Shown here piece after piece: positions 9,174 to 35,403 of a DNA stretch of 39,263 nt (its first letter is position 1; each line of letters opens with the position of its first letter). The notes below the pieces were generated by a model, which saw nothing but the letters and a program-made list of their open reading frames with translations, was not told the origin of the DNA and searched no databases. The translations under genes and the position numbers were made by a program. Source of the stretch: a virus. The DNA lies in the IMG/VR virus record IMGVR_UViG_3300007963_000015, positions 1-39,263 of that record; one strand, 5' to 3'.

Positions 9174-10556
9174 ATGCACAGACCTCCAGTCCAAGAACTG
9201 ATTCACAGGTTTGACTACCTAAAGAAGCGACGTTTTAACTTTGAAAAAGCGTGGCAAGATATCAGTGATTTGATGATGCCGTATCGTGGTGACATTACTA
9301 CGAAACGCTCTACAGGATCACGAAGAGTCAAAGGTGTCTTCGATACTACTGCTATGAATGCGGCAGACTCTTTTGTGAACTTCATTAAAGGAGCCATCAT
9401 TCCTTCTGGTAATGATTGGGTGCGTCTTCACGCTAAAGCTCCCTACACTGATGTAATTCAAGTCAGACAGGTTTTAGATCTTGTTGCTGATAGAGTCTTA
9501 ACAGAACTTTCAAACTCTAACTTTTACAAAGAAGCCAGTGGGTTTTTGCGTGATTTTGCAGTGTTAGGGAATGGAACATTACACGTTCGTGAGGGCAAGC
9601 CCAAGTTTGGATCTAAAGGTCAGACCTTTGGAGGCTTGGTTTTTGAGGCTGTTCCTATTGGCCGTATGTGGTTTATGGTTGGTAACGAAGGTCGTCCAGA
9701 CTTTCTTGTTCGCCAAATAACCATGACGGCAGTTGATGCTATGCGTTTCTTTGATGGCAATGCCGGAGGAGATGCGGAGTATCATATCAATGCAGGCAAC
9801 CCTATGGAGGAATGTAACTTCCTTCATTTTGTTTACGAAAATGAAGACTTCCTCCCTCACGGCGTTCCTACTCCAGATAATAGAAAGTACGCCAGCATCT
9901 ACGTTTCTGGTTACGGTGATTTCGTAACTGGTACAGGTTCTATGTCAGAGCCAGCCATTGTTAAAGTTGGTGGTTTTGATCACTGCCCTTACATTGTGGC
10001 ACGTTGGATGGTGGTGGATGGGGAAGAGTACGGCAGAGGCAAGGGCCATTTGGCTCGTGCTGATGCTATGGGAATCAATGAACTACGCCGTCAGATTTTG
10101 ATTGCGGCAGGTAAAGATCTCAATCCTCCCCTTATGGTGGAACATGATACAGTTGTTGAGTTGGATATTACTCCTAACGGCCTTATGGTTACTCGGCCCC
10201 CCGTCAAAATGGGACCGCAGTACCTCAAGTCGGACACGAACTACCAAGTCGCAGACCTCATTGCGAGGCAAGACAGAGACCAAATCAAGAAAGCGTTTTT
10301 AGGAGACATTCTTGATGACCCAGAGACGCAACCAAGAAGTGCTGAAGAAAGTCGTCAAAGACAAACTCGTGCATTAAGCAGACTGGCGGCTTCGGCAGAT
10401 ACAGTAAACTATGAGTTTCTTGATCCCATGATTCAAAGTTGTATTGACATTATGTATCGTGGAGGAATGTTGCCGGAGTTGGACATGCTCCAAGAAATGG
10501 CTCCTGATGCAGAGTTTGAAATTGTGTATCAGTCTCCATTCTTTACTTCCCAATAA
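9174..10556 (+). CDS. Portal (head-tail connector) protein, cut short by an in-frame TAA
   Basis: This is a T7 gp8-type connector: a dodecameric ring at the head vertex through which DNA passes. Family signs are the N-terminal HRFDYLKKRR...W-x-D-I-S-D-L-M-M-P, then FDTTAMNAADSFVNF and GAIIPSGNDWVRL, a GRG-K-G segment with ARADAMGINELRRQ, and EESRQRQTRALSRL. The frame stops at TAA 10554-10556 after SPFFTSQ. The same frame then continues without interruption to 10832 with sequence expected for the connector C-terminus. The fused product would be about 552 residues, the usual connector size. The start ATG follows GAGGAATAAA. Explanations are a sequence error, a nonsense mutation, readthrough, or a truly two-piece portal. 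Confidence 0.93.
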   Translation: MHRPPVQELIHRFDYLKKRRFNFEKAWQDISDLMMPYRGDITTKRSTGSRRVKGVFDTTAMNAADSFVNFIKGAIIPSGNDWVRLHAKAPYTDVIQVRQVLDLVADRVLTELSNSNFYKEASGFLRDFAVLGNGTLHVREGKPKFGSKGQTFGGLVFEAVPIGRMWFMVGNEGRPDFLVRQITMTAVDAMRFFDGNAGGDAEYHINAGNPMEECNFLHFVYENEDFLPHGVPTPDNRKYASIYVSGYGDFVTGTGSMSEPAIVKVGGFDHCPYIVARWMVVDGEEYGRGKGHLARADAMGINELRRQILIAAGKDLNPPLMVEHDTVVELDITPNGLMVTRPPVKMGPQYLKSDTNYQVADLIARQDRDQIKKAFLGDILDDPETQPRSAEESRQRQTRALSRLAASADTVNYEFLDPMIQSCIDIMYRGGMLPELDMLQEMAPDAEFEIVYQSPFFTSQ

Positions 10557-10832: not shown

Positions 10833-11164
10833 TGATAAATATGCCAATGAATTTTAGTCAAACCTCTGGCGGTGGCGGTGGCTATCGAAGCGAAAGTGGT
10901 TTTTCTAGCTTTGGAGACGTTGCTAAAAGACAACTTGAAAAAGAGTACAAAAAGAAGAAAGTTAAAAAACTCGTAGCAGAAGCACAAGCAAATCATTATC
11001 GAGGGGCGGGTGATTTGCTTAATAGGATTAGGTTTGGTATGTCTTTGACTGACGCACAAATTGCACAACACAATGTTGCTACAGGTCAGAATCCTCGAAC
11101 TACTAGACCTAATTTTACAGATATGCTTGGATTCAAATACGCTAAAAATTTAGGAGTTCTTTGA
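10832..11164 (+). CDS. Unknown small basic protein, 110 aa
   Basis: The N-terminus is glycine- and serine-rich, followed by a strongly basic helix (RQLEKEYKKKKVKKLVAEAQ) and a mixed C-terminal half. No family is recognised. The start is uncertain: ATG at 10832 overlaps the preceding stop (TAATG), and two further in-frame ATGs lie at 10841 and 10847, none with a clear Shine-Dalgarno site. The stop overlaps the next start as TGATG. Located among portal and scaffold genes, it may be a minor virion protein. Confidence 0.6.
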   Translation: MINMPMNFSQTSGGGGGYRSESGFSSFGDVAKRQLEKEYKKKKVKKLVAEAQANHYRGAGDLLNRIRFGMSLTDAQIAQHNVATGQNPRTTRPNFTDMLGFKYAKNLGVL

Positions 11165-12492
11165 TGAGAAATCAAACAGGAATAAATGCAATTGAGGAGC
11201 TTTATGGAGTTCCATCACATAAAAAGTTTATTGACTTAAGACCTAAACCAAAACCAACACAGTTAAAGCAAGGTGGTTGGCGACGGAAAAGACAGCCTAG
11301 AGCAGGTACAGGGACCCATGAAACAGCAAAAATGGCTTACGACTTTATGGAGCCGGGATATGTTCATGCCGCTAGGACTGGAACAATCCCAGAGTCAATC
11401 TTTGGCAAGGCAATGCTTGGCGTAGAAACAACACTTGATCTTGCTCCCGGTCTTGGCAAAGTCGTTTCAGCGGCAATACCCTTTGGATTGATGAGAAAAG
11501 TAGATCCTGTCGAAATCCAAAGAAAAACTATTAACATAGGTGAACAAATAAGCAATACCGACATTTTTGATATACCTACTCTTGAAAAGTATATGCCTGA
11601 ACAGTTGGCTATGTCTATGCATAGACTGCCTCCAGTTCAACAACAAAAAGATATGCTTGAAACTACTAACCTATTAGATCTTATTCAGGGGGCTACTAAA
11701 AAAGAAACTAAAAAATGGCGTGAGAGTGTAAAAAGTTTGCCAGCCAGCCAGAGGGTGGGATTCCCAATCCATAACATTGACACAATGTATCCAGCAGGTA
11801 GTGACACAGGAGCCATTCTCGCCGATCAAATAGGATCAGCTCAGAATATGGATGATTTAGCGTTTAACCCTAACCTCCCTTTGTTTCAAGCAACTGCAAG
11901 AGCACAAGGAAACATTGAAACAGCCTCAAAACGCATTATTGAAAAACTTGGAAGTGGTGAAATAGAAAGAACTGTAGGCCACAAACAAAAAGCAAAACTT
12001 CTTAAAGATTACATTGCCGCAGAAGCCGACCGACAAGCACATCTAAAAGCATTTCCACAGGTAAAAAATAAAACAAAAGAAATCTTTAGAGAGTCTAAAA
12101 CCGAAGCAATGCGTCTTGGTGATAAATACGAAGCAGATGAAGTAACCCGCTTGTACGAAGAACACGCTTTTGGAAAAGGTCATGGAGACGAGTCTGCTAA
12201 ATATTTTCTTCCAGAGTTTCAAGCACAAGCGGCAAATGACGCAAAGCATTATCGTGCTGAAGAGTTCATGGAACAAATCAATGCACGAACAGAAGCAAAA
12301 GCAATAGAAACAGTTAAACGTAGCATTCCCGCTCAAACAAAAGAGATCAAGAATCAAATTCAAGAAACAGGAACCTACGATCCTAAAAACCGAATGCAAA
12401 GAGGTTTTGGAGAAGATGCTGAAGCACTTAGACAAATGCAAAAGAATCTTCAGTCGTACAATCCAATGAATATGAGAATTAGAAGTGTCTAA
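11164..12492 (+). CDS. Large unknown virion-region protein, 442 aa, with a shared N-terminal motif
   Basis: No family is recognised. Near the start (about residues 17-30) is SHKKFIDLRPKPKP, very similar in place and sequence to PPKSFVDLRSNKP in the next gene, so the two share an N-terminal module. The rest is a short hydrophobic stretch (about 80-105) and then a long, charged, helical region rich in K, E, Q and A. The ATG at 11164 has AGGAG seven bases upstream; the TTG at 11161 is too close to it. It overlaps the previous gene as TGATG and the next by 8 nt. Size, helix content and position suggest a protein packaged and ejected with the DNA. Confidence 0.7.
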   Translation: MRNQTGINAIEELYGVPSHKKFIDLRPKPKPTQLKQGGWRRKRQPRAGTGTHETAKMAYDFMEPGYVHAARTGTIPESIFGKAMLGVETTLDLAPGLGKVVSAAIPFGLMRKVDPVEIQRKTINIGEQISNTDIFDIPTLEKYMPEQLAMSMHRLPPVQQQKDMLETTNLLDLIQGATKKETKKWRESVKSLPASQRVGFPIHNIDTMYPAGSDTGAILADQIGSAQNMDDLAFNPNLPLFQATARAQGNIETASKRIIEKLGSGEIERTVGHKQKAKLLKDYIAAEADRQAHLKAFPQVKNKTKEIFRESKTEAMRLGDKYEADEVTRLYEEHAFGKGHGDESAKYFLPEFQAQAANDAKHYRAEEFMEQINARTEAKAIETVKRSIPAQTKEIKNQIQETGTYDPKNRMQRGFGEDAEALRQMQKNLQSYNPMNMRIRSV

Positions 12493-13969
12493 AAAAAGAG
12501 ATAATCAAGTAGTTAATGAGTTCATTTTTGGAATGGGATCACAGACTCCTCCAAAAAGTTTTGTTGATTTACGCTCTAATAAACCTGCGGCTCCTAATGC
12601 AACCATTGGGCCAAGACCTTCTCCATCCATGAGAAGCCAACAAAGAAGACAAGCACATTTAACAGGTAACTATCCCAACCCTTTGATTGAACCTCGTGGA
12701 ATTAATCAACTTGGTGCAACTCCTCGTAGGGGCGACTTTCCTGCGGGGACGGCTGAAGATGTAAAAGATTTTACTAAAAATGCAGTTGGATTCTACTACG
12801 GAGAAACACCGCAGGAAGTTGCAACAGGTCTTGCATTTGAAGCGGTTATTCCAATAGTAGGTGGTGCTTTATGGAAAACAGGAAAAGGCATTTATGGTGC
12901 TGGCAAATCAATAAGGCAAGCGTACCAATACGCAGACTCAATGGTTCCGGGCAATAGACCGCCTAGACCGCCTAGACCAAAAACTCCTACTGCACCTGTT
13001 AACCCAGCAGACGTTGAAGGTAGACGCAATGTTCTAAAAGGTGGTCTTGTTGTTGCCGCAGGTGGAGCCGCCGCCGCTTCAAAAAACGTAGAAGAAGCGG
13101 TTAATTTTGGACAGCAAGTTTTAAGAGGACTTAAAGGACAAGGCAGAAGAGTTTTGCCTGAAGGTTTTTTACAGGGTTTTGGAAAATATAACTACCAAAA
13201 TTTGAGCAAACGTTTTGGAAAAGAAATGAAAAAGATGACTGATGACTTTAGCCCAGAGTTTGATCCAAATGATTTTGGTGGCATAGGATACGTTCGAGAA
13301 GAAGCGGCTAACTTTGTGCTAGATGACATGATTCAAGGTGTTGTATCTCGTACTATTCCTACGCTTCCCCAAAGAGCAAAAAAACTGTTAGGATTAGGCA
13401 AGGATGCAAAACATCCATTTGTTATGTCTGATATTGAAGAGGGCATAGAAAAGGCGATGTTGAAAAATGTGCATCGCTCAGGGGATTCTAAAGTCCAACC
13501 ACTTTTTAATATGACTTCACATATAGATAGCATGGTTGGTCGAGAAAAAAATGAACTTCTTGCCGCAAATGCAAGGTATAGAAAAAGAATACAACAACAT
13601 ATTGATTCTCAGTTTGAAAAACCCCTCACTGATATGACTCCAGAACAAAGTAAAAAGTATATAGAAAAACAAATAAAGTCTTTACAATCGTCCATCACAA
13701 GAAATGAACAACTTTTGAACTCTATTGACAGAGCACCAACAGATCTTATTACTGAAAAACAAGTTCGAGGAATTTTACAAGAACGAATGATGCAGAATGT
13801 CTTAGGTGAAATAAAACACAAGCTAGGTAATTGGAAAGGGAAAGATAAAAAAGAATATCTCAAAAAGTTTCAGGAAGAAATAAAAAAAAGGCTAGATGAC
13901 TTTGACTACATTAACACTGTAAAAAGGCAACGTGGTAAATACGCAAAGAACGGATCGCCTATTGTTTAA
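12485..13969 (+). CDS. Large unknown virion-region protein, 494 aa, with shared N-terminal motif and Tat-like segment
   Basis: The N-terminus (about residues 10-34) carries the same K-(K/S)-F-(I/V)-D-L-R module as the preceding gene, so the pair may be distant paralogues or share a packaging tag. A proline-rich linker (about 158-174) is followed by RRNVLKGGLVVAAGG (180-194). That resembles a twin-arginine signal core but lies far from the N-terminus. The remainder is charged and helical. The start is GTG with a poor ribosome-binding site. The gene overlaps its neighbours at both ends. A role as an ejected or internal head protein is possible. I do not recognise a family. Confidence 0.68.
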   Translation: MSKKRDNQVVNEFIFGMGSQTPPKSFVDLRSNKPAAPNATIGPRPSPSMRSQQRRQAHLTGNYPNPLIEPRGINQLGATPRRGDFPAGTAEDVKDFTKNAVGFYYGETPQEVATGLAFEAVIPIVGGALWKTGKGIYGAGKSIRQAYQYADSMVPGNRPPRPPRPKTPTAPVNPADVEGRRNVLKGGLVVAAGGAAAASKNVEEAVNFGQQVLRGLKGQGRRVLPEGFLQGFGKYNYQNLSKRFGKEMKKMTDDFSPEFDPNDFGGIGYVREEAANFVLDDMIQGVVSRTIPTLPQRAKKLLGLGKDAKHPFVMSDIEEGIEKAMLKNVHRSGDSKVQPLFNMTSHIDSMVGREKNELLAANARYRKRIQQHIDSQFEKPLTDMTPEQSKKYIEKQIKSLQSSITRNEQLLNSIDRAPTDLITEKQVRGILQERMMQNVLGEIKHKLGNWKGKDKKEYLKKFQEEIKKRLDDFDYINTVKRQRGKYAKNGSPIV

Positions 13970-14249
13970 CACTAATGAAGAAAGGTTTCTGAAGGAAACG
14001 CACCAGTTGTTTTCTTCAGATAATGGCAAGCGGGTTCTGGAGTATCTTCGGCGTGTTCTTCATGTTGAGGATACTTTGGAACCTGAAGAACACTTAAATC
14101 GTGATTTAGAAGCCTCTGGTAGAGCAGAACGAGTACACATAGACCCGATTGGGTTTGCTAAGAGGCAGGGAATGAAATCCGCATACTATAAAATCGAAGC
14201 CCTGATTAGGCAGGGTGATAGAATGTCAAAGGAGAAAGACAGTGAATGA
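13932..14249 (+). CDS. Bbp19-like small phage protein, 105 aa
   Basis: The segment F-L-K-E-T-H-Q-L-F-S-S-D-N-G-K-R-V-L-E-Y-L-R-R matches the core of the small Bbp19-type proteins often found near portal and scaffold genes in podoviruses. Their function is unknown. The GTG start at 13932 has AAGG five bases upstream and lies 38 nt inside the preceding gene; a later start is possible because the recognisable domain begins about residue 17. Its stop overlaps the scaffold start by 8 nt. The family match is from memory. Confidence 0.7.
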   Translation: MVNTQRTDRLLFNTNEERFLKETHQLFSSDNGKRVLEYLRRVLHVEDTLEPEEHLNRDLEASGRAERVHIDPIGFAKRQGMKSAYYKIEALIRQGDRMSKEKDSE

Positions 14250-15060
14250 AATAAATGATCTGGAAGAACACCTTCCAATCGACATGGACGGCAGGGACGC
14301 AATCCTTGGCAAGTTCAACAGTGTCGATGATCTAGCAAAGTCCTATGTAGGACTGGAAAAGAAAATGGGACAGGGCAAAAGAGTCCCTCAAGAAGAAGCC
14401 TCGCAAGAAGAGTGGCGTGAGTTTTACCAAGAACTTGGTGCTCCTTCTTCAGCAGACGCATATCAGACTCCTGAAGAAATGCCTGAAGGTTTTGCTGATA
14501 TGATGCAAAGAGCAAGAAATGTTGCACATGAAAAAGGACTGACTCAAGATCAGTTTGGAAACATGATTGAGCCATTTCTTCAAGCTGAAAAAGAACGGCA
14601 AGTCGTTGCTGACAATGCCGTGAAAGAAAGTCAGGACCGTTGGAAGCGACAACTACAAGAGCAATATGGGGCCGAATATGAGTCTAAATCTGCATTAGCC
14701 CAACGTGCGTATGAGTCTGTCGTGAATAACAACCCTGATCTACAGAATGTGTTTGATGCAACTGGAATGGGGCACCACCCCGCTGTTATGGACTTTATGG
14801 TTAGAATGGGATCTGGAATGTCAGACGAAGTAGTACCCTCTGGTAGTGGTGGTGATGTCCTTGGATTTGACCCTGCTGGGCTTGCGGCTCGTGCTAGGAA
14901 ACTCGCTAAAATGGGAGCAATCCACAATAATCGCCATCCTGATTACGAAGAACACTTCAAAGAGTTTATGGATATTCAACAGAAGTTGGCTGAAGAAGGC
15001 TACGAAGGAATGAGCGATCCTCGCCTTCAGCCTTCTGGCGGATGGGTTTCTGGAAGATAA
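14242..15060 (+). CDS. Scaffolding (capsid assembly) protein, 272 aa
   Basis: Scaffolds guide coat subunits into a procapsid and then leave it. The protein is very acidic and helical, with a central region rich in Q, E and R (about residues 95-155) and no cysteine. Near the N-terminus it has DGRDAILGKFNSVDDLAKSY, a pattern frequent in T7-like scaffold proteins, followed by GAPSSADAY. It sits directly upstream of the coat gene, the classical place. The GTG at 14242 follows AAAGGAG with about seven bases spacing, a far better start than the open frame at 14215. The C-terminus is more mixed, with a helix that may bind the coat protein. Confidence 0.85.
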   Translation: MNEINDLEEHLPIDMDGRDAILGKFNSVDDLAKSYVGLEKKMGQGKRVPQEEASQEEWREFYQELGAPSSADAYQTPEEMPEGFADMMQRARNVAHEKGLTQDQFGNMIEPFLQAEKERQVVADNAVKESQDRWKRQLQEQYGAEYESKSALAQRAYESVVNNNPDLQNVFDATGMGHHPAVMDFMVRMGSGMSDEVVPSGSGGDVLGFDPAGLAARARKLAKMGAIHNNRHPDYEEHFKEFMDIQQKLAEEGYEGMSDPRLQPSGGWVSGR

Positions 15061-17082: not shown

Positions 17083-17817
17083 ATGAGTTCAAAAGGATCT
17101 GCTTCCGACTCGGCAAACGTGAATGTCGTTCGGAATCCAAAGGTTCATGCGGAACCTATTAACCTTTCGGTTAAGGGTATGTTTCATTTTAAGATTGAGC
17201 GAGCAGGTGGACTTGTAGAAGAGTTCACGGCTCCAAACTTGGTCACTCAGCATGGACTTGAGCAGTTGCTTACTGGCATTGCTACAAAGTCAACTACCAA
17301 CAACTTCGCAAGTGCGGCAAATAGTTACACTAGCAGAAAGTGCGGCTTGTTTCTTTCGACTACCGCCGTTCCCGGTAGTGGTGGCGGTTCTACACAAGGA
17401 TCTGCCAGCATTGATTTGGATGATAGCACTGGCAGTGGTGGTACTGCTTACTGCGGAAGTGCTGGTTCTGTAACCAATACTGGACCTGCAACTAACTTCA
17501 GTGAAGTTCTCGATAGTAGTAACAATCTTCTTTATATGCTTGGTGATGGTAGTGCTGGCGGAGGCGAGGCTGAGTGTGTTTTTGGAACCACGGCTGTTCA
17601 AGCAGGAACAGGAGCAAAAAGAAAAGTCGTATCTGCTGGAGTTAAAGTCGATGCTACTGATGCTAGTGGAACGATTAAAACTGCTGGTATTTGCATTGGT
17701 GATGTGGGAAGTCCAACTGCCGCCGCCGCAAAAGTCTTTTGCGTTGCTACTATTAGCGATGTGGCTCTTACTAATGGCGATTCTCTGACAACGACATACA
17801 CCATCGAGTTAACTTAA
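17083..17817 (+). CDS. Probable virion protein, 244 aa, glycine/serine/alanine-rich
   Basis: I recognise no family. After a polar N-terminus comes FHFKIERAGGLVEEFTAPNLVTQHGLEQLL, a pattern seen at the start of several phage particle proteins. A long G/S/T/A-rich middle (about residues 90-170) and beta-like repeats near the C-terminus (VKVDATDASGTIKTAG, TLTTTYTIEL-like end) follow. Five cysteines are present, four in the last two thirds. It ends the coat cluster, just before a terminator. A decoration or surface protein is likely but not shown. Confidence 0.68.
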   Translation: MSSKGSASDSANVNVVRNPKVHAEPINLSVKGMFHFKIERAGGLVEEFTAPNLVTQHGLEQLLTGIATKSTTNNFASAANSYTSRKCGLFLSTTAVPGSGGGSTQGSASIDLDDSTGSGGTAYCGSAGSVTNTGPATNFSEVLDSSNNLLYMLGDGSAGGGEAECVFGTTAVQAGTGAKRKVVSAGVKVDATDASGTIKTAGICIGDVGSPTAAAAKVFCVATISDVALTNGDSLTTTYTIELT

Positions 17818-17836
17818 TCTTGGCCTTTCTTCTGGG

Positions 17837-17875
17837 GGGGACGGTTTAGTGCGGGCTACCGTCCCCTCCTTTGTT
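17837..17875 (+). terminator. Rho-independent terminator or attenuator after the coat cluster
   Basis: GGGGACGGT (17837-17845) pairs perfectly with ACCGTCCCC (17858-17866), followed by TCCTTTGTTT. The stem is strong and the T tract imperfect, so part of the transcription may continue into the tail genes, lowering their level relative to coat protein. Confidence 0.78.
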
Positions 17876-17886
17876 TCGGAGGATTG

Positions 17887-18249
17887 TTGGCTACACCATT
17901 CGATCCCTCTAACCCGGAACCTAGAGGGCTAGAAAGTCCTTTAATATCTATTGCCGATCTGAAGACTCAGGTCGCAAATGGTGATATTTTACTTGCAACT
18001 CAAGATAGTCTAACTGACGAGTGGTTTTGGTCTGGTCCATTTGAATGGGTCGAAGACGAAGACGACGGTTGGGTTTCTTTTCGATTTGGTGCTTTCGTAT
18101 GGAAAGACCAAACAAGATTTCCGGATCGAAAAGCTTTAGTCAGAGTTTCAAATATGGCTTTGGTAAGACTTCCTAAAATAAGCTCACCTTCTTATCAAGA
18201 AATTAATGAAGAATATAGAGCCGGGTGGCCAGAGCCTCCGTCATGGTAA
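17887..18249 (+). CDS. Unknown tryptophan-rich protein, 120 aa
   Basis: The protein is acidic with clustered aromatics (DEWFWSGPFEWVEDEDDGWVSFRFG) and ends in P-E-P-P-S-W. No family is recognised. The start is probably TTG at 17887, which gives MATPFDPSN and has GGAGGA just upstream. The TTG at 17884 is too near the ribosome-binding site. It follows the terminator closely and overlaps the giant tail gene by 25 nt. It may be a partner or assembly factor for that protein, inferred from overlap only. Confidence 0.6.
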   Translation: MATPFDPSNPEPRGLESPLISIADLKTQVANGDILLATQDSLTDEWFWSGPFEWVEDEDDGWVSFRFGAFVWKDQTRFPDRKALVRVSNMALVRLPKISSPSYQEINEEYRAGWPEPPSW

Positions 18250-21131
18250 TAGCAGGAAATTCTTGGATACGGGCTGGCACTGGAACTAGTGGCGAACCTG
18301 CTCAAATAAACGGAGTCAATGAAGCCGCCAACTACACAATGTCTTCAACGACTGAAGTTATTTCTCTTTGTGCAGGAGCGGCAGACAATAACGATAGATT
18401 TGAGCCTGATGATACAAGCGAAGGCAGTGCTACGCTTTCTCATCGAGTAGTAGGGACTACTAGTTGGAGCACAACGGGAACTTCTAGCACAGCAAACGGT
18501 CCTTATATTGCATCGAACTCTGTTCTTGTTCATGACACTGCTGTTTCTTCAACAATGCAGGTAACAAGCCCCCCTTCTGGAGAAAATGCTAATGACTATG
18601 TAGCGGCAGGAAGGCAACACGAAACTTCAAATCGTTTGGACATGGCGGCTGAGTGCCGAAGAGGTTGGACAGAAGTACAGTTTGGTGTTGGCTTTGGTTC
18701 TAGTACAAGTGCGGGAGCACAGTATGAGTTTAGGGTTGCGTGGCAGGCAAAAGATGGCAACCTAAATACTATACTTGCTTCGAGGTTAACAAGTGCATCT
18801 TCTGCTGTAGATTATACACGATCTGCTACTGAAGCAGTCGGCGTTGCTGATGATCTCACCCTTGGACATGGAAGATCATTAAGTGATAATGTAACAAGAT
18901 TTTTTTCCATTAATCCTCCTGAAGCCGTTTCGACAAAAACTGTAAACTACACAAGAGCGGCTAGCAGTTTTCCTTTTGCTTTTGACACTATTATTGATCC
19001 AAAGATTCAGGTTGAAAAAGTTCTTTCTGAATCAATAACATCAGGTGATTCAGTTCTCCCTGACCACGATCAGGCTTATACAAGAACTCCAGACGATGAG
19101 TCTGTTGTTGCTTCTGACTCTGCTGTTGTTTCGATTAGTTTTGTAAAAACTGACGGTGTAACAGTAAGCGATTCAGGAGCAAGAGATCACGATCAAGCAT
19201 ACACAAGGGCACCTGATGACGAGTCTGTAACAGTAGGAGACTCAGCATCTTTAGCAATCGCATTTGTTGCAGATGATTCTTTAGCAGTCTCTGACACACC
19301 TGTTGTTGACGAAGACAATGCATACACAAGAGCACCGGATGACGAATCGGTTGCTGTTTTTGATGACGCTACTTTTGCTCTCTCTATTGTTCAACAAGAT
19401 GGTGTTGCTGTTGCAGATACCCCTGTAACAGATCACGACGATGACCAACTCGCTGTTGCAGAAGACACTTTTACGGTATCTGATTCTGTTTCTTTGGTTA
19501 TTAGCGTTGCCCCTGATTCTTCTGTTCAGGTAGATGATGAACCTACTGTAGACGAAGACAACGTTGTAACTAGGGCTAAACAAGAAGATGTTGCTGTTGC
19601 CGACGATGTATTGCTGGCTGTTTCTTTGGGTGTTTCCGAAGGAGCAACCGTTAGCGACAGCATTGCAACGGACCATGATAACGACCAGCAGGATACGGCT
19701 TCTGAACTTGCAACTGTTTCTGATTCCGTTTCAACAGTTGCTACATTTGCAGTTACACCAGAGGATGCGTTTGTAGTATCAGACAGCGTTTCTTCTGCTA
19801 TTTCTACAACCACAAGCAATACTGAATCATTAACGATTTCTGATTCGGTTGATACTGCTATTGCATTTGTAGAAACGCCTTCAGATGCGGCTGTAGTTTC
19901 TGAAGATGTTAATGCAGACAAAGATGGTTCAGTTACAAGACAACTTTCTGAGCCTGTTCTTGTTGACGATAGCGTCAATCTTGGGCTGTCACTGGTTACT
20001 CCTGATACAGGAACAGTTAGTGATTCTGCAAATGCAGTTAAAGGATCTCCTCTTGTCAGAGAAGTAGAAGATTCTATATCAGCCGGAGACGGAACTGGTA
20101 TTGGAATCGGAATCGATGTTGGGGATCAGTTCGAGATTGATGACCGTGGAAACCTTACTCACGGCAGAAATCCTGAAGAAGAAGTTAGCATTGATGACTT
20201 CCCCCTAAAAACAAGACAGCCAAAATGCGGTGCAGGAGTAGAAGATTCTAATATCCTCGACATTACCTTTATAAAGGTAAGCGAAGTAACTGTTGGCGAC
20301 TCTGCTACTGCAAATAAACAACAAGACCTTGAAGAGCAAATCACGGATGAAGCAGGAGTAACTGATTCCGTAACGCTTGTTCAACCAATAAGAAGAGAAA
20401 TAACAGCCACCATCGTTGGTGATGGGGGCATTGATCCAAATCTAATGAAAGAGGCACAAGCCGTGGCTACCATAGATGTTTGGAATGTGGCATTGAATGC
20501 CTTGGGTATTAGCACTTTGGAGACAACCACTGGCAATAATCCTCAGCAGACACTGCTTAACAACACATTCCCCTTGTTTAGAAAACAGTTCTTATCTGAC
20601 CATCTATGGAATGGTGCTAAGAAAACAGCAGACCTTACCAAACTGGACGTAAACACCACCGATCAGTCAGTGGCTAATCGTTGGAAGTACGTCTATGTCC
20701 TTCCCACAGACTGCATGAGGGTTTGGCGTTTGAACGGTCAGGAAAACAAACCCGTTCATGTTGGAGGCAACTCTAATATCTACACCAATAGGTGGGAGAT
20801 TGAAGTTGTTACCAAAGGAACTACAGGTGGCGACACCAATACAGGTAAGTACAGAGCATTATGCACTAACGAAGACGAAGCTCGCATTGAGTATGTCTTT
20901 GATGTAGGAAATGATATTGATCTGCTTGGTCCACTTACACAGCACGCAATGGGATTAACACTTGCCGCATTTGTTGCTACTAACTTTGGTAAGTCTGCAA
21001 GTGAAATAGCACAACTTGAGGCTCAAGCTAATAATGCTATTACAGCCGCTAAGGGTGTAGACGGTCAGGAAGGTACTCCTCAAATGTTTGGAGATACCAG
21101 TCTTTTGGGCGTTAGGTCGATTGGCTACTAA
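18225..21131 (+). CDS. Giant repeat protein fused to tail tubular protein A (adaptor), 968 aa
   Basis: The last ~225 residues (from about 743) are a T7 gp11-type adaptor. The signs are VATIDVWNVALNALGI, then LFRKQFLSDHLWNGAKK, YVLPTDCMRVWRLNG, EARIEYVFDVGND and LTQHAMGLTLAAFVATNFG. Such adaptors are normally about 200 aa and stand alone. Here one uninterrupted frame adds about 740 residues in front. Residues 1-~210 look beta-rich. From about 279 there are tandem, acidic ~41-residue repeats with DHDQAYTRAPDDESV and TVSDS/VVSDS motifs. I found no ribosome-binding site near the ATG that opens the adaptor part, so a true fusion is likely. In T7 the fibre docks where gp11 meets gp12, so this extension may serve as a fibre. 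The start is GTG 18225 or ATG 18243. Confidence 0.85.
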   Translation: MARASVMVIAGNSWIRAGTGTSGEPAQINGVNEAANYTMSSTTEVISLCAGAADNNDRFEPDDTSEGSATLSHRVVGTTSWSTTGTSSTANGPYIASNSVLVHDTAVSSTMQVTSPPSGENANDYVAAGRQHETSNRLDMAAECRRGWTEVQFGVGFGSSTSAGAQYEFRVAWQAKDGNLNTILASRLTSASSAVDYTRSATEAVGVADDLTLGHGRSLSDNVTRFFSINPPEAVSTKTVNYTRAASSFPFAFDTIIDPKIQVEKVLSESITSGDSVLPDHDQAYTRTPDDESVVASDSAVVSISFVKTDGVTVSDSGARDHDQAYTRAPDDESVTVGDSASLAIAFVADDSLAVSDTPVVDEDNAYTRAPDDESVAVFDDATFALSIVQQDGVAVADTPVTDHDDDQLAVAEDTFTVSDSVSLVISVAPDSSVQVDDEPTVDEDNVVTRAKQEDVAVADDVLLAVSLGVSEGATVSDSIATDHDNDQQDTASELATVSDSVSTVATFAVTPEDAFVVSDSVSSAISTTTSNTESLTISDSVDTAIAFVETPSDAAVVSEDVNADKDGSVTRQLSEPVLVDDSVNLGLSLVTPDTGTVSDSANAVKGSPLVREVEDSISAGDGTGIGIGIDVGDQFEIDDRGNLTHGRNPEEEVSIDDFPLKTRQPKCGAGVEDSNILDITFIKVSEVTVGDSATANKQQDLEEQITDEAGVTDSVTLVQPIRREITATIVGDGGIDPNLMKEAQAVATIDVWNVALNALGISTLETTTGNNPQQTLLNNTFPLFRKQFLSDHLWNGAKKTADLTKLDVNTTDQSVANRWKYVYVLPTDCMRVWRLNGQENKPVHVGGNSNIYTNRWEIEVVTKGTTGGDTNTGKYRALCTNEDEARIEYVFDVGNDIDLLGPLTQHAMGLTLAAFVATNFGKSASEIAQLEAQANNAITAAKGVDGQEGTPQMFGDTSLLGVRSIGY
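19063..20040 (+). repeat. Tandem ~41-residue acidic repeats within the adaptor fusion
   Basis: The DNA encodes successive units beginning DHDQAYTRTPDDESV, DHDQAYTRAPDDESV and DEDNAYTRAPDDESV, about 123 bases apart. More diverged units follow with DHDDDQ, DEDNVVTR and DHDNDQ openings and VSDSV cores. Early units are most alike and later ones drift. The many D residues may bind calcium. Nucleotide identity between units is moderate, so the array looks old rather than freshly expanded. Confidence 0.8.
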
Positions 21132-24100
21132 TGGTATACATAGCACAACAATCTTTTGGCACTGGAGAAGTAGACCCGAACATTCGGGCACAGTACGACT
21201 CTATGCCCTACAAAACAGGGTGTCAGATTCTTGAAAATGCTTATCTTAGCGATACAGGTTCAGCTCTAAAACGTTGGGGTTCTACTGTATTTTCTACAAG
21301 TTCTGGTCAGTATAAAGCGTTTAGTTTCGTAAACTCATACGGCGAAACTTACTACATCTTAAACATTGTTGATTCTGGTACATCGGGATACAAGATTATT
21401 CGTGCTTCTAATGCTACTGTAATTTCTACTTATACTAACAGCGAGACTTCTAACTCTTCCGAGTACGTTAAAGACATTGCTTCTTCTGGAACTCAGTTGT
21501 TTGTTATGACTATCGAGGGTGTTTACTCTCACATTATTCATGATGACAAAGACAAAAGAACACACCTGACAGATCTAAATATTGGAATCCTTGAAAGCGT
21601 CAATCCTGTTTCATTAATTGTTACTAATCACCCTGAAGCATCGACTCATTACAAAGGCTTGAAGGTTACAAGTAGTCAAAAAGTCTTTAATAAGAATGAC
21701 GTTGGCACTCTTTGGAAACTAATGCCGGGGCCTTCTTCAGAAGATATTACTCCTGTGTTTAGAGAGTTAGATGCAAGAAACTTTCAGGATTCATTTAACC
21801 CTGTAAGCGAGACTTTGGATGCTCCTGATTATCCATTTGTATCTGAAACAGAAGTACGAATGGAAAATTACTTTGTCGATGACAATGAAAACCCTGACAA
21901 ATACGGAGTTGCTAAAAATGTTTACCTTAAACAAGGACACACAGTTTCTAGCAACACTTTAGTAGCAACTCATACTTTAACTAATCAAGACTCTACTGGA
22001 GCAGATGAGGCTTATTGCAGAATCTATAATATTGGCGACTTAAACATTCAACATCGATACAGCACAGGAGATCCTTTTGTTCCATACAAAGAAGGCGAAA
22101 TTATTTCCTTTACTTTAACAAATGGCTCAAAAAATATTGCATTTGAGTCTGCTTACAATACTGTTTCAGGAACTCAGTCTGCTGAAACTATTGTTAAGAT
22201 TGAAACCAGAGAAGGAACTAACTCCACAAGAGATTTTTGGGAGTTTCCAAATACCGACATTACACCAAACATTCAGGTTCCCGGATCGGATCAACTTGCT
22301 GAAGGTCAGTACGATTGGTCAGGTCCATACACTAACTGGGTAACTATTGGAAAAATATTCACTAACTACAATGGAAGTGAAGACGTTACAGGTGTTATTA
22401 AAAATGCTACATGGAATACAAATCTAAATCAGACTCCAGTTCTTCTGTCTACACTTGTAACAGATGCTACGTCTTCTGCTTCTTTGATTACTGACGATCA
22501 TAAAAAGGCTTTAACTCAAGGTGCAGTTGGAGTTATTGAGCAGTGCATTGGCTCTAGCGTCTACAATAAAACTTACTTCTACGTTTCTAAAAAGAAGTTC
22601 GTGGAAGATAACGGAACAAAAGTACCTAACAATACTGATGATCCATATGTGACTTTGATTACAGGGCAACCTTTGATCCCTCCTGTTGCTGTAGATGCTG
22701 ACAACCCAATGTACACAACATTGAAAATCAGACTTGCATCTAGCACTGACAACTCTGGAACAAATAAAACTAGCGATGGTCTTGCTGTAAACAGAAATGG
22801 TTTGTTTGCTGATGCTCTTGTGAGAGACAATAACTACCGGGTTGGCTTGGTTGGAAGTGCAAGTGCCAGCGTTGATATTACTTCTTACGACGTTTCAGCG
22901 TATGGAACTTCAACTAATATTATTAATGGCACTACTTCTTTTACCAACAAAGTATTCTTGACCAATCTGATTGGCGATACTAATCCGGGACCAAAAACAA
23001 ACACCTTTAGAATTTCGCAGTTTGAAATAGACAACGAACATACTAATGTGTTCAATACTTCTACAGAAGGACAAGCAGGATCTTACTACTGGAAAATGAC
23101 TGAAGAAGCGTTTAATCCAGTAACCGCATCTGGAAAAACAAAAGAAGTTCTCGCTTACGCTGAAATTGTAGAATACCACCAAGAAAGATTGTTTCTTTCA
23201 GGCTTCAAAGTTTCGGATGCAATCAAAGACATCTCTACGGCACAAAGAGTTCCTTTGACAATCCTTGCTAGCAAATCAGGCAATACAAATAACTTTCAAA
23301 CAGGACCTAATGGTGACGATGGGTTGTCTGTTGCGGTTGCTTCTAAGGATGGTGGCTACATTCAGTGGCTTAAAAGCCTTGGCAATGCTCTTTTTGTAGG
23401 TAGTGACGAAGAAGAGTTCATTATTGCAGACGCTCCAATGACTCCTACTTCCTTAAATATTTCAAGACAGTCTAATTACGGCTCTAGAGAAGATGTAAGT
23501 GCTAAAGTATATGGCAATGCAGTTCTTTATGTTACTAAAGACGGCAAATCTGTTAGGGCATTAAACTTTAATGAAAGAACAAATCGATACGAATCGGACG
23601 ATTTGCTTCAATATGCTAAACATTTAACTAAATCAGAGCGAATTAAGAAGATTGAAGTAGTTCATACTGCTACTCCTCTGCTTATGGCCCTGACTGAATC
23701 TGGCAAACTGTATTGTTTTACCTCAAAAACCAAAAACTCGGTGTATGGTTGGTCTGAATGGAGCAACTCTCAACTTGGAACCTTTAGCGAGATTGTTTCT
23801 GGCCGAGATTCTTCGAGTAATCCTTGTCTTTTTGCTCGTTGCTCTAATCTTTCTTCTGGTGCTGGCTCCGTTCTTATTACTTCAGACGATACTAGGCTAG
23901 ATTATCTTTTAGATTACGCAACTGAAGTAGATACAGATCAATCAGCTCCTCTTTCGAGCGTGACTAGCAGTGCATACGCGAATAAAACCGTTTCTGTCAT
24001 AGTCAAAAAGACTACAGGCGAAGAAGTTTACGTTGGCGACTATGTAGCAAGTGCTCTTGGGGTGATTACTTTTGACGGATTGTCCTTTAATAACGTCGAT

Positions 24101-24433
24101 AAGGTTATTCTTGGTCTTCCGTACACCATGAAGTTGGCACCAAACATTCCAGAAGTAATGATGCCCGGCAAAGGTAGCACTTTGGGTAGAGATAAAAATG
24201 TAAGTAGGCTTAGGATCTTCTTTAATCAGGTGTTAGGAGCTGTAGCCGCTGGCTATAACGTGTTTCCGGTGCCTTTGGATACAAAAGATGCGGCACCTAC
24301 GAATACTGCTGGATTCTATTCTGTCCCGGTAATCGGTCAGTATGGTCCCCAGCCTACAATCATCATTGAACAATCCGCTCCATACTCATTTGAAGTTAGC
24401 GGATATAACGCTGAATATGACTTTGGAGATTAA
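21131..24433 (+). CDS. Tail tubular protein B (tail nozzle), 1100 aa
   Basis: T7 gp12-type proteins form the tail nozzle below the adaptor ring. The N-terminus has the family opening: QQSFGTGEVDPNIRAQYDSMPYKTG, then a CQILENAYLSDTGSALKRWG stretch (compare gp12 'SFxxGExSP...Y..G...ENF...GxxxRR'). The C-terminal half contains VEYHQERLFLSGF, the conserved 'RLxF' region, and SDEEEFIIADAP and GSREDVSAKVYGNAVLYVTKDG. At 1100 aa it is longer than T7 gp12 (about 790), mostly by insertions in the middle. The ATG overlaps the adaptor stop by one base. The pair builds the short tail together. Confidence 0.9.
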   Translation: MVYIAQQSFGTGEVDPNIRAQYDSMPYKTGCQILENAYLSDTGSALKRWGSTVFSTSSGQYKAFSFVNSYGETYYILNIVDSGTSGYKIIRASNATVISTYTNSETSNSSEYVKDIASSGTQLFVMTIEGVYSHIIHDDKDKRTHLTDLNIGILESVNPVSLIVTNHPEASTHYKGLKVTSSQKVFNKNDVGTLWKLMPGPSSEDITPVFRELDARNFQDSFNPVSETLDAPDYPFVSETEVRMENYFVDDNENPDKYGVAKNVYLKQGHTVSSNTLVATHTLTNQDSTGADEAYCRIYNIGDLNIQHRYSTGDPFVPYKEGEIISFTLTNGSKNIAFESAYNTVSGTQSAETIVKIETREGTNSTRDFWEFPNTDITPNIQVPGSDQLAEGQYDWSGPYTNWVTIGKIFTNYNGSEDVTGVIKNATWNTNLNQTPVLLSTLVTDATSSASLITDDHKKALTQGAVGVIEQCIGSSVYNKTYFYVSKKKFVEDNGTKVPNNTDDPYVTLITGQPLIPPVAVDADNPMYTTLKIRLASSTDNSGTNKTSDGLAVNRNGLFADALVRDNNYRVGLVGSASASVDITSYDVSAYGTSTNIINGTTSFTNKVFLTNLIGDTNPGPKTNTFRISQFEIDNEHTNVFNTSTEGQAGSYYWKMTEEAFNPVTASGKTKEVLAYAEIVEYHQERLFLSGFKVSDAIKDISTAQRVPLTILASKSGNTNNFQTGPNGDDGLSVAVASKDGGYIQWLKSLGNALFVGSDEEEFIIADAPMTPTSLNISRQSNYGSREDVSAKVYGNAVLYVTKDGKSVRALNFNERTNRYESDDLLQYAKHLTKSERIKKIEVVHTATPLLMALTESGKLYCFTSKTKNSVYGWSEWSNSQLGTFSEIVSGRDSSSNPCLFARCSNLSSGAGSVLITSDDTRLDYLLDYATEVDTDQSAPLSSVTSSAYANKTVSVIVKKTTGEEVYVGDYVASALGVITFDGLSFNNVDKVILGLPYTMKLAPNIPEVMMPGKGSTLGRDKNVSRLRIFFNQVLGAVAAGYNVFPVPLDTKDAAPTNTAGFYSVPVIGQYGPQPTIIIEQSAPYSFEVSGYNAEYDFGD

Positions 24434-27900: not shown

Positions 27901-27982
27901 TGCAGGTATGAGTGACAAAAGGATGAGTAGGTTCCTTAAGAAGTTCTTACAGACAAAGGTTATTGGCAATGGATTACAGTAA
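24977..27982 (+). CDS. Internal virion protein, gp15-like, 1001 aa
   Basis: In T7 gp15 forms part of the periplasmic tube through which DNA enters the cell. This protein is long, almost entirely helical, and acidic, without a signal peptide, as expected. It opens with a basic polar tail and LPDIPGAKVDIAIGNALNKLGQSLTDYAKSE-type helix, typical of podovirus core proteins. It follows the gp14-like gene with a 7-nt gap (AGG ribosome-binding site) and overlaps the next gene by 14 nt. No enzymatic motif is seen. The call depends on size, composition and gene order. Confidence 0.76.
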   Translation: MANLRIPSSVNSSRQMPRLPDIPGAKVDIAIGNALNKLGQSLTDYAKSEAVRSDKLLMGSAGIQGIIEASIEQTQNFYEFDDSGGIDYEQSILKSNNIVEYSEATWEEARQNAMEQVENLPWKTSDVKKSAVATVESAFKSQTNQQIKLNLVKQQDQLKSDYVESLLTEASFDPDTNIAQVIDTATNTIESMADSTKAKQNFLVRAKTYINNASLTRSGALEIFQGTDNQYLQPLFNAVTGNAKRTLKNALGLSSSNADSTDMTVTPVDIGALGEAKIAFESMPDGSNKSAMALLIAEADAQAKYNANIILQASALTQGSNDILDDPKGVDSYLAKRDAYLSMDEDQFISFLDGYSKFTYLPPNIASYVNEFLSQSSYNTRELQLVNELADRYNQTKLHGVSDQSKARLQTWIENRHLKDEDRLAVSMLVEGTTLSEAEQGHINGLKLQTNPTGLFGWFDSQLEDFLEANALDDEYDWDELTPVQQQMIANKLNLQIQTEAKIAKASKNDILAISGEVIRKRALRSLLNNSIIVPAPGSEAPLYIPFDLNVRKKNGQLDQISVQNVIQFYRDNLIKHVKNADPTLSGEDLKEEVDKLIPNMSVFPNPLEIGTYTMRTEEGDVIGYLDPQLLVQDQYVPSAILSSYELDPASPDFILKQTSPFSPEQKEDFDSWKYEDPTKEESIQLYPFKEQFAEVLSDESFKALPVDQQYDMLQMLGDRLVVTSKADPYLMIPEFRRIYQQEYENFLESQKVTAGVVPGVGPTTNVLPKLIKNTMPSDWKNDLDELPWDAGRPQFKDQEWYDISYPEFEGTLEAEWVYQIYDKAVDTYTETLQNMSESQLRTVYNKAKSASITGLDLGIEHFTPLGVLQGYKEAAKIKNKSFVTVLKSKIERMAEVNDPTLKPTIIQQLVPTDTKIYAIIESESDATLSKRMRTISSAEASELRNAEVDMALPEDFVRIALMDLAVDKQMAQIIAGMSDKRMSRFLKKFLQTKVIGNGLQ

Positions 27983-30900
27983 GTTCGAACCTATCAATTT
28001 TACTTCTGATGCAGAACGAGACGCTCTTACTAGAAGGTACGGGCAGAATGTTCCATACGTCAAGGAGACTGATTACAGTTGGATGCGTAGAACGTATGAA
28101 CAAATCCATGCATACAATACCCTGAGTCTTCTTTCTCAAGAGGGAAGCATCTCGAACTCTTATGAAGAGCTTGACTATAATCCAGCAAAAGATCCTGCTG
28201 TTACTGCTAATCAGTGGATATCTGGTTATTACCCTGAAGTATGGCAGTCATTGCTAGAGTCTAATAGCAGTGCTTACACTCAAAGCGTAATTAAGAATGT
28301 TAGCAGAAACCACAAGTCTGCTGAAATCATTGGGTCTGGTGGGCTTGTAGGTAACTTGGCCGGCAGTCTGGTTGCTGGAATCTTTGATCCTATTAACTGG
28401 ATCTTTCCTACTGCTGGTATTCTCGCTAAAGGTGGATCTCTTTCTAAACAGGCTGTCAGTGCTGTTAAAGGCATGAAGCAAACCCATATCGCACAGCAAA
28501 CCGCAGGGCTTACACTTAGGCAGAAAGCACAATACGCTGCTATTGATAACATGGTTACTACCAGCATTGTCGAACCTTTAATGCAAGCGAAGAACATGAC
28601 AAGGACTGAACAGGATTACCTGTACGACCTTGTAGGTTCCGCTGTATTTGGTGCCGGGCTTAATGTAACCGTCAGCAAGATGGGCGACGGCCTCAATACA
28701 GTACGTGAGAATGTCACCATGCGAATGGTAGGGGCACCTACTATTGAAGAGGCAATGGAGACTGCTGGTGAAAGAATCGTTGCCAGCGTGAATAGGCAGA
28801 TTGAAGACCTTCCTTTGAACGATGCTCGTAAAGTAGAGCAACGTATGAACAACATTGAAGACTTCTTAGATGCTGTTAGAGACAATCCTGAGGATCTAGA
28901 GTTCGATATGAAACTCTATGACAATGCATTCAATGAAGTATTCCCTAACATTGGTGAGGTATCTGGGCTGGGTAAGTTGGTTAAATGGTTTATTATGAAC
29001 CCGAACCAACAACTATTGAAGACTGGTAGTAGGCAGGTGATTGATTTCACCACTAACCTGCTTGAGGGCAACCTACATTTTGAAGGAAGCACTGGCCGTG
29101 TTCCTATTGAATCCAAGATTAAACTCGTTGACTTTGTAATGAAGAGACAAATCGGTGAGTTTGGATCTAAGTTTGACGACTATGCTCATGCTAATAGAGA
29201 GATGGAATTAACTCCTGATAAAATTCGAGAGATGGTTTATTACTTAGTTGTCAGCGGACAGGATACTGTTGAAGGTGCAATGAACAGGACGTTTAAGGTC
29301 AACAATAATGGTGATTTGATTGACGCTTACGTTTTCAAAGATATCTTTGGCAAGCAAGTCGAACTTGGCAATCAGTCTAAACTTAATGAACTTAGCAAAT
29401 TTATTGAGGACCAAGCAGATGTTTATCGGGGAATCGTAAAGACCCTTGATAACAGCTTAAACTCTGCGGGTGTACTAAGCAGTGTTATGCGTTCAGCAGA
29501 TGATAACCCTTTGAATCTCATGGCTTATGTTAGCCGTTGGATTTCTGAAGAGGGTGCTCATTCTATTGATTTGTTTGTTCGTTCTGTAGACGAAGGTATT
29601 GTACAAAGACACACAACTATTAAAGGGCAGATCACTAAAGATCTTAGGCAACTTTCTGACGAACTGAATTCATATCAGAAAATCGTAGAAGAAGGTGGGC
29701 TTTCTCATTGGGAAAGATCTAGACTCCGTAATAAAATGGAGATCTCTAAAGAAAAAATAAAGTCTGCTGAAAATGAACTTGCTGAACTTCAGAAACTTAT
29801 TGACGATCCTGTTGCTCGTGAGTTGTTTGCTAAACGCATTGTCAATAATTACACTCTTTCTTACGACAAAAATATTGTTGGTGCTCGTGGTTTTGGTTCT
29901 GGCAATACTACTCAAGAGATTCTTTCTCGTCGGGTAGATATTTCTGATACTTTTCTTTCTCCTTTTGTTGTGCGTGATCCTGCCGCTACGCTTGATAAAG
30001 CTCGTATGCACTTGGTTCCCAAGATTGTTCTTGCTGACGATCTTTTGAACAGGTATGGCGGTACTCGTGGCATTAACTTTAACAGGTCTCTTGGTCAGCA
30101 AATGGATAAGTTGGCTGAACTAGAAGAAGACATGAAGCTTAAGTCTGAAAACGGTGAAATTGTTACAGAGGCTGACGCTTCTCTGGTTAAAAACCTTCAA
30201 GACGATATCCTTGACGACATTGCTACTTCACGACTAATAAATGAAGCAATGATGATTGCTGATCTGAGTGACCTGAACAAAGCAATGAACGCAGAGTTCA
30301 GCAGTCTTGAAAGAGCCATTAAAGAAATACTAGATCTTAATGCTTCTAGAAAAGAAAAAAGAAAGAAAGCATCTGAGATCCTCAACAAACTTAAAGAGAC
30401 TGAACAAGAAATAGAAAATAGATCTACTTATGGATCTGATCTTTCTAGGCTAATTAAACAAAAATCCTATTGGGAAAGAGAACTTTCTTTCTTAGATACT
30501 TCTTCGTATGACGATATTGGATCTGTTTACGCTGAGGTTTTGAATCAAGGTTTTATTCCTGAAGGAAGATCTGATCTTGAATCTCGTAATCGCCTTGATG
30601 ATTCTATTGTTGAAGTAATCTTTGATGGGACTAACGTTCGACATCAGGTAATGATTGATGGAGTTCTTTCTGATGTAACCATTCGGGAAGCACCTTTTGC
30701 TAAGAGTCCCGGAAGACCTAATCTAGATATTATTGACGACGTAACTTTGGTTTATTGGTTTACTAATGATGGTCGTTGGGGCTGGGCTAATCCTTTAGAA
30801 CTTCAAGACGCTACTCGTATTCAACACGCAAAAGCATTAAGGGATTCTCCCCGTGTGACAGATCAAGCTAAGATTAACTCTGCTATGAGAAAGATTGAAA

Positions 30901-33602: not shown

Positions 33603-33843
33603 AAGAAACTATAAGAAAGAATACAAAAAGTTTCAGTCATCAGACGAGCAAAAGAAAAAGCGAGCTACTCGAAATAAGAATCGAGCAGAAGCTGAAAAAG
33701 ATGGGCGTGTTCGTAAAGGAGATGGCAAAGATGTTCACCATAAGAATGGTAAAACTAAAGTAATGTCTAAGTCTAAGAATCGTGGCATAGCAGAAAAGTC
33801 TCGCTTGAAAGGAAGTAAACGTGGCAAAAAAGAAGGCAAGTAA
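33592..33843 (+). CDS. Small basic protein with HNH-like fragment, 83 aa
   Basis: The protein is extremely basic (K/R-rich) and contains GDGKDVHHKNGKT followed by MSKSKNRGIAEKS. This layout recalls the D-V-H-H-K-D-G...N core of HNH endonucleases and a known group of small basic phage proteins with the same core and unknown role. A complete HNH site is not evident. The ATG at 33592 overlaps the lipoprotein gene by 11 nt; AAGGAAAAG upstream is rather far. It starts a run of four small to medium lysine-rich genes at the end of the virion block. Confidence 0.72.
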   Translation: MTAKRNYKKEYKKFQSSDEQKKKRATRNKNRAEAEKDGRVRKGDGKDVHHKNGKTKVMSKSKNRGIAEKSRLKGSKRGKKEGK

Positions 33844-34123
33844 GAAAGATTCACGTTTGGCTAGGGCTGGCGTGAGTGGATACAACAAACCTAAACGTAC
33901 ACCTAATCACTCTACTAAGTCGCACATTGTGGTTGCTAAAGAGGGTGATAAAGTAAAGACGATTCGCTTTGGTGAAAAAGGTGCGAAGACTGCTGGCAAA
34001 CCTAAGCCGGGTGAGTCTGATCGTATGAAAGCCAAGCGTAAATCTTTTAAGGCTCGTCATGCTAAGAACATTGCCAAGGGTAAAATGTCTGCGGCATATT
34101 GGGCTGATAAGGTAAAGTGGTAA
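33821..34123 (+). CDS. Conserved small basic phage protein, 100 aa
   Basis: The segments TKSHIVVAKEGDKVKTIRFG, GKPKPGESDRMKAKRKSFK and the ending KGKMSAAYWADKVKW are familiar from many environmental and marine phage genomes, where the protein is conserved but of unknown function. This is recall, not a search. The start is GTG at 33821 with AAAGGAAG five bases upstream, overlapping the previous gene by 23 nt. Strong positive charge suggests DNA or RNA binding or a packaged DNA-associated protein. Confidence 0.8.
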   Translation: MAKKKASKKDSRLARAGVSGYNKPKRTPNHSTKSHIVVAKEGDKVKTIRFGEKGAKTAGKPKPGESDRMKAKRKSFKARHAKNIAKGKMSAAYWADKVKW

Positions 34124-35324: not shown

Positions 35325-35403
35325 CGATTTCTTCGTTTCCGTCGAATCTTTGAAAATCTTGTCCGGGCTTTAAGGTTACTTGTGTTCTGCTACCGGGTTT
35401 CAC
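35197..35403 (-). CDS. Possible small protein overlapping the nuclease gene, 68 aa
   Basis: Starting at GTG 35403, 14 nt before the stop of the preceding gene, the frame reads VKPGSRTQVTLKPGQDF, then EEIDVFYEKGQWKIITPKR. It looks like a folded beta-rich domain rather than random sequence. It then runs 128 nt into the nuclease gene in another frame. The ribosome-binding site is weak (GGA nine bases away). Either both genes are real and overlap, or this one is a shadow. Without it there would be a 65-nt gap in a tightly packed operon. Confidence 0.5.
   Translation of the reverse strand: MKPGSRTQVTLKPGQDFQRFDGNEEIDVFYEKGQWKIITPKRVFLLQAEQVREKDCSHTQSRRVSGVG

Follow-up and report, generated by a model that had tools for sequence, protein, structure and literature searches.

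The genome examined here, an IMG/VR viral record (IMGVR_UViG_3300007963_000015) of 39,263 nt that was analysed over its whole length and is hereafter called the window, carries a T7 gp11-type tail adaptor as the C-terminal domain of a long chain, behind a predicted beta-sandwich tip and an arm of acidic repeats. At the joint between arm and adaptor lies a conserved internal start, which predicts a nested second product, a bare adaptor of about 222 aa. We consider it fairly probable that this one gene specifies two nested in-frame products, that armed and bare subunits would share a mixed ring, that the arm would replace the tail fibre, and that its tip would bind the receptor. With less assurance, and only somewhat in favour, we suggest that the phages sharing this organisation form a podovirus-like clade without a separate fibre, in which translation would set the number of arms, the anchor would be C-terminal and the N-terminal tip would be swapped.

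Table 1. Features of the arm-adaptor locus and its neighbours in the window.
Feature	Position	Strand	Remarks
g121, small upstream gene	17884..18249	+	stop overlaps arm start; travels with tip as a cassette
Full-length arm-adaptor chain	18243..21131	+	962 aa; likelier start is ATG 18243
N-terminal tip domain, predicted beta-sandwich	18243..18842	+	AlphaFold2
Repeat arm and linker	18843..20447	+	acidic ~41-residue repeats, each two ~20-residue units
Internal Shine-Dalgarno AAAGAGG	20448..20454	+	duplex energy -5.8 kcal/mol
Internal start codon GTG	20463..20465	+	codon 741 of long chain
Adaptor domain / predicted short product	20463..21131	+	222 aa, T7 gp11-type
Nozzle (gp12-type) gene	21131..24433	+	PHROG 376 tail protein, residues 648-1099, E 1e-49

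The initial annotation had described a chain of 968 aa with the adaptor at its C-terminal end. Positions 18225-21131 (+) are indeed a single open frame of 968 codons, but the likelier product is slightly shorter and begins at an ATG that overlaps the TAA (18247-18249) of the preceding gene g121, a stop/start overlap that is common to many relatives. The placement of a T7 gp11-type adaptor behind a long repeat arm is borne out by PHROG 394 (tail protein), which matches residues 749-964 only (E 3e-28). Since T7's own gp11 gave no match to PHROG 394, it is fold and gene order that connect the window adaptor with T7. The best profile match of the adaptor was chain 8ck1_E of Carin-1 (E 7e-8). In the AlphaFold2 model (pLDDT mostly 50-74), residues 739-937 display a helix-helix-beta-helix-helix order, and comparison with known folds (Foldseek and VIA-align) retrieved the connectors of Carin-1 (Z 10.8) and LME-1 (10.0), T7 gp11 (9.4 and 9.2) and the KP32 TTPA (9.2), the top VIA-align rows being adaptors. 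The model retains a beta insertion resembling the region that forms the fibre dock of T7; residues 938-962, where the C-terminal embracing helix would be expected, were modelled at low confidence and without a helix. The genes follow the order capsid-adaptor-nozzle, and the adaptor directly precedes the nozzle gene, as T7 gp11-type adaptors do; the start of the nozzle gene overlaps the adaptor stop and is syntenic in relatives.

The same in-frame fusion was found in 40 further IMG/VR contigs, so that the search for other fused adaptors proposed in the initial annotation was productive. Searches with the adaptor provided 38 of these, while L086 and L108 came from tip and broader adaptor searches. 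In all 38 the frame of the adaptor continues upstream over a long region or is open to the contig end; among the first 39 loci (window included) an upstream stop is reached in 28, the others running off the contig. Measured from the first ATG, the upstream part has 610-1408 aa in nearly all complete cases, and the open frame of L108 extends to 1784 aa. All complete members of this adaptor clade among the IMG/VR contigs are fused likewise, and a stop codon between arm and adaptor occurs in none of its members. Each of the 18 fused contigs searched for adaptors gave exactly one match, and a second, separate adaptor gene is thereby rejected for these contigs. Clustering of the first 39 loci at 85% identity yielded 19 adaptor lineages, which share about 40-65% identity with the window adaptor and which stand apart from 10 unfused adaptors in the tree with a bootstrap of 100, although long branches call for caution. 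The unfused adaptors have 186-201 aa and include those of the pelagiphages HTVC010P and HTVC100P and of phiV10, YeP5 and ctVRi840. No cultured relative with the fusion was found: in the annotations examined, adaptor queries matched unfused adaptors of 187-201 aa, and the isolates matched with the window chain as query were pelagiphages only. A host search, in which genome contigs were scanned for the adaptor, gave a single match, distant and unfused.

In-frame nested genes with internal starts are known from phages, e.g. C/Nu3 of lambda and 4A/4B of T7, whose products are scaffold/protease and primase/helicase. The locus described here resembles them in having one frame, an internal Shine-Dalgarno (SD) sequence with a start codon, and an extra C-terminal product; it differs in that its products would be armed and bare subunits of one tail ring. 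In all 19 lineages an SD-like sequence lies at the adaptor boundary, with a start codon 5-9 nt downstream in all but L017. The combination of xTG and SD (-5.5 kcal/mol or better, a cut-off chosen after the data had been seen) falls on the joint column in 18/19 lineages, as against 6/19 for the next-best of 265 columns, which share the same phylogeny; the exception, L017, has its GTG one codon earlier than the joint column. By simple duplex estimates, on which all SD energies given here are based, the internal SD of the window compares with those at starts of the same genome (g244, -5.8; portal, -5.9; TerL, -4.3 kcal/mol). The encoded residue at the joint alternates between Val, Leu and Met, yet the codon stays xTG (GTG, TTG or ATG); calculated from the codon usage of each ORF, the odds for xTG multiply to 10^-11.3, a product that ignores kinship, the lineages not being independent. 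As the GGAG core occurs in all three codon phases (in about 10, 3 and 4 lineages), it is the nucleotides that are kept and not the residues. Protein constraint alone, considered as a source of the conservation at the joint, was ruled out by the Val/Leu/Met variation together with the SD phases. GTG accounts for only 3 of the 105 Val codons in the window ORF, which upstream of the joint contains no other xTG with a comparable SD; downstream, inside the adaptor domain, there are two ATG/TTG codons and one other TTG with a comparable SD. The internal start is also near the normal gp11 N-terminus, residues 732-944 of the model aligning with residues 1-180 of T7 gp11 and the start being residue 741. 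A conserved ribosome-binding site and start at the joint were absent from the initial annotation.

The acidic repeats of ~41 residues claimed for the arm were recovered as an autocorrelation peak at lag 41/40 (0.24 vs a shuffled maximum of -0.27) in a sequence with 21% D+E and 5% K+R. Repetition above the shuffled level, at periods of 20-25 residues or twice that, was also seen in most other arms that were tested, while in L028, L036, L042 and L044 it is at noise or barely above it. Laminin_G_3 lectin-like domains were detected within the arms of L042 (E 4e-24) and L108 (E 4e-17). The linker before the joint shows a dN/dS of about 0.2-0.4 in unsaturated pairs, i.e. purifying selection, and therefore the long read-through product is under selection too. 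Structure prediction for the N-terminal ~740 residues, as recommended initially, had a divided outcome. Modelled alone with 11 sequences, the tip gave a beta-sandwich (pLDDT 70, pTM 0.74) with strands between residues 2 and 183; the full-chain AlphaFold2 model likewise shows the tip as a sandwich, but in it the arm has no confident fold (pLDDT about 25) and the model is unusable there. Against the PDB and BFVD the tip model had no significant fold match and no specific receptor-binding fold.

Homologous tips occur in 12 other loci, and overall at least seven families of N-terminal tips can be distinguished, with no similarity detected from one family to another. Their distribution is at odds with that of the adaptors: L022 and L023 have adaptors that are 100% identical and tips that are unrelated, while the tips of L024 and L030 are 88% identical and their adaptors 49% identical. 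Between L028 and L036 both flanks retain at least 90% DNA identity and the block between the upstream gene and the joint has been replaced, with the breakpoint 33 nt before the internal start; L021 and L026 share 90% identity only over the upstream gene, the tip, part of the arm and a short piece of the adaptor. Likewise, window positions 17813-18799, which comprise g121 and the tip only, have 78% DNA identity to L086, a locus whose arm is different and whose adaptor is similar to that of L027/L030. The gene preceding the arm largely covaries with the tip. Homologues of g121 with 121-137 aa precede related tips in L008, L022, L027, L029 and L037, and g121 itself matched nothing in PHROG or Pfam; nor did the upstream genes of 364-398 aa, concanavalin-like by eye, have a Pfam match. 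A cassette of g121 and tip with 91% DNA identity to that of L037 is present in L097, where it belongs to a free-standing arm protein (L097:5601-8159, 852 aa) whose tip shares 77% protein identity with the tip of a phage that has the fused adaptor. In this phage, which has a different tail, a stop codon closes the arm frame, and the next gene is a neck/tail gene unrelated to the adaptor; covalent fusion is therefore not essential for the arm everywhere. Judged from these loci, the exchange of tips independently of the adaptor is a signature of host-range modules, and because tips are swapped and some arms hold lectin-like domains, we read the arm as probably a swappable receptor-binding part.

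The absence of a recognisable separate fibre gene, noted from the start, holds on closer inspection. A search for the N-terminal domain of T7-type fibres (PF03906) that recognises T7 gp17 at 4e-77 gave no match in the window and none in 18 further contigs of IMG/VR, and the window contains no long ORF after the gp16-like gene. Nine relatives of 31-45 kb have the order capsid, small variable genes, arm-adaptor, nozzle, internal virion proteins, gp16-like and spanin-like, wherever the contig covers those genes, with no other long late ORF among them. The arm itself may act as a fibre, but it is not a gp17 (no PF03906) and has the opposite polarity, being anchored C-terminally. With the T7-like beta insertion of the fibre dock retained, a small separate fibre protein may exist, and a short or unrelated fibre may have escaped the search.

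Several other explanations of the locus deserve consideration. That the fusion is an artefact of assembly, a frameshift or a missed stop codon might be suspected from one probable broken gene elsewhere in the window, the portal; its recurrence in 40 other contigs refutes this, and we regard an artefact as practically negligible. A uniform ring, in which all twelve adaptors would be armed and the internal start would have no meaningful use, agrees with the lack of a stop between arm and adaptor throughout the clade. It leaves unexplained, however, why SD and xTG are conserved independently of phase across adaptors of about 40-65% identity, and seems unlikely. The same conservation weighs on the possibility that a protease cleaves the long chain near the joint, so that arm and adaptor would be separate in the virion. 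A prohead-type protease gene is present in the window (14215-15060, PHROG 458) and the related arm in L097 is a separate protein, but the internal start, which cleavage would render superfluous, is kept, and no conserved cleavage motif was noticed by eye in the linker alignment; we give this explanation an equally low probability.

It may also be asked whether the arm serves a structural or protective purpose as an appendage (a neck whisker, a decoration or a means of general surface adhesion), the receptor being bound by something else, for instance the product of a variable gene between capsid and arm, or a small protein seated on the fibre dock that the adaptor retains. Both the T7-like dock insertion of the adaptor model and the small genes without assigned role between capsid and arm would allow for this. 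Unrelated tips on identical adaptors are nevertheless typical of receptor-binding parts, and lectin-like domains in some arms point the same way, which makes an appendage of this kind improbable.

According to the two-product reading, which we prefer, initiation at ATG 18243 would give the tip-arm-adaptor chain (962 aa) and initiation at the internal SD/GTG 20463 the bare adaptor (222 aa). The ring of 12 subunits that lies between portal and nozzle would take up armed and bare subunits alike, and the relative use of the two starts would determine the mean number of arms per ring. Since the loop that connects helices one and two contacts the nozzle in T7, the N-terminus is expected at the dock/portal side of the bundle, and an N-terminal arm could exit the ring there. 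The arm would project from the ring with the tip outermost, would take the place of a separate tail fibre and would bind the host receptor by its tip. With the chain anchored at its C-terminus, exchanging the 5' part of the gene together with the small gene ahead of it could shift host range. Twelve arms of 740 residues on a single ring would be crowded, and bare subunits would relieve the crowding and allow tuning. As to its history, the simplest course would be that the stop of a free upstream arm gene, such as that in L097, disappeared and the ribosome-binding site of the adaptor was retained. The uniform chain with up to twelve arms that had been envisaged initially does not fit the conserved internal SD and xTG, which predict a bare adaptor too; hence the arm number is probably below twelve. 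What stands of that proposal, a new way to attach receptor-binding parts, is the fusion, the lack of a recognisable separate fibre and the genetic behaviour of the arm, which resembles that of a receptor-binding part, without the uniform chain. A separate adaptor of ~22-25 kDa, formerly named as grounds for refutation, is a prediction of the two-product model, alongside the long chain.

The T7 adaptor forms a ring of 12 subunits, with the fibres docked where this ring adjoins the six-fold nozzle (PMC6702177); P-SCSP1u has the same arrangement of adaptor, nozzle and fibre (PMC10575957). With T7 gp11 and the TTPA proteins (T7, KP32, P-SCSP1u) the window adaptor shares its fold and its place between portal and nozzle, and its internal start maps only a few residues from the gp11 N-terminus (PMC6702177, PMC10575957). 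Whereas gp11 is one short chain and the T7 fibres are separate gp17 trimers located between gp11 and gp12, in the window the adaptor chain carries the arm at its N-terminal side, and no gp17 was found. Carin-1 (8ck1) is the nearest solved structure, but there, as in the pelagiphages HTVC010P and HTVC100P, the adaptor is a separate protein (222 aa in the Carin-1 chain, 193 aa in the pelagiphages). A role in adsorption at the level of the adaptor, putative in the window, has a counterpart in Vibrio phage OWB, where tail tubular proteins A/B act as receptor binders (PMC7241545); those are standard tubular proteins, in contrast to the long dedicated arm in the window. A search of open-access papers found no published fused adaptor. 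Anchor and arm in one chain set this system apart from T7 and similar short-tailed phages with their separate receptor-binding subunits, and the conserved second start would tune the number of arms per virion. A long in-frame arm with SD/xTG at the adaptor boundary may serve as a signature for host-range determinants in uncultured phages without an annotatable fibre, and the locus could offer a natural system in which a 12-fold ring handles two subunit types.

Some observations concern the remainder of the genome. An in-frame TAA (10554-10556) cuts short the portal gene (9174-10556, 460 aa), and beyond it a homologous C-terminal part follows in the same frame; portals of relatives have 539-568 aa in one frame, and the gene is probably broken, by sequencing error or real truncation. 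Between portal and protease, at 11161-13969, lie two long ORFs of 443 and 494 aa that had no PHROG or significant Pfam match; G005-G007 are examples of relatives in which the portal is directly followed by g105 and the protease gene. The gp16-like protein (27963-33011, 1682 aa) matches a PHROG described as internal virion protein with endolysin domain, and its relatives range from about 1400 to 2343 aa. After it the window encodes a 100-aa protein of PHROG 7595 (33821-34123), of which G003 has a 73% identical copy between the capsid and arm genes, i.e. a gene that changes place. Finally, 35390-38531 and 1203-2237 contain RecT/RecE-like recombination genes, a repressor-like regulator and an anti-restriction protein (PHROG 7245), which together with a P22-like terminase suggest a mosaic, possibly temperate phage.
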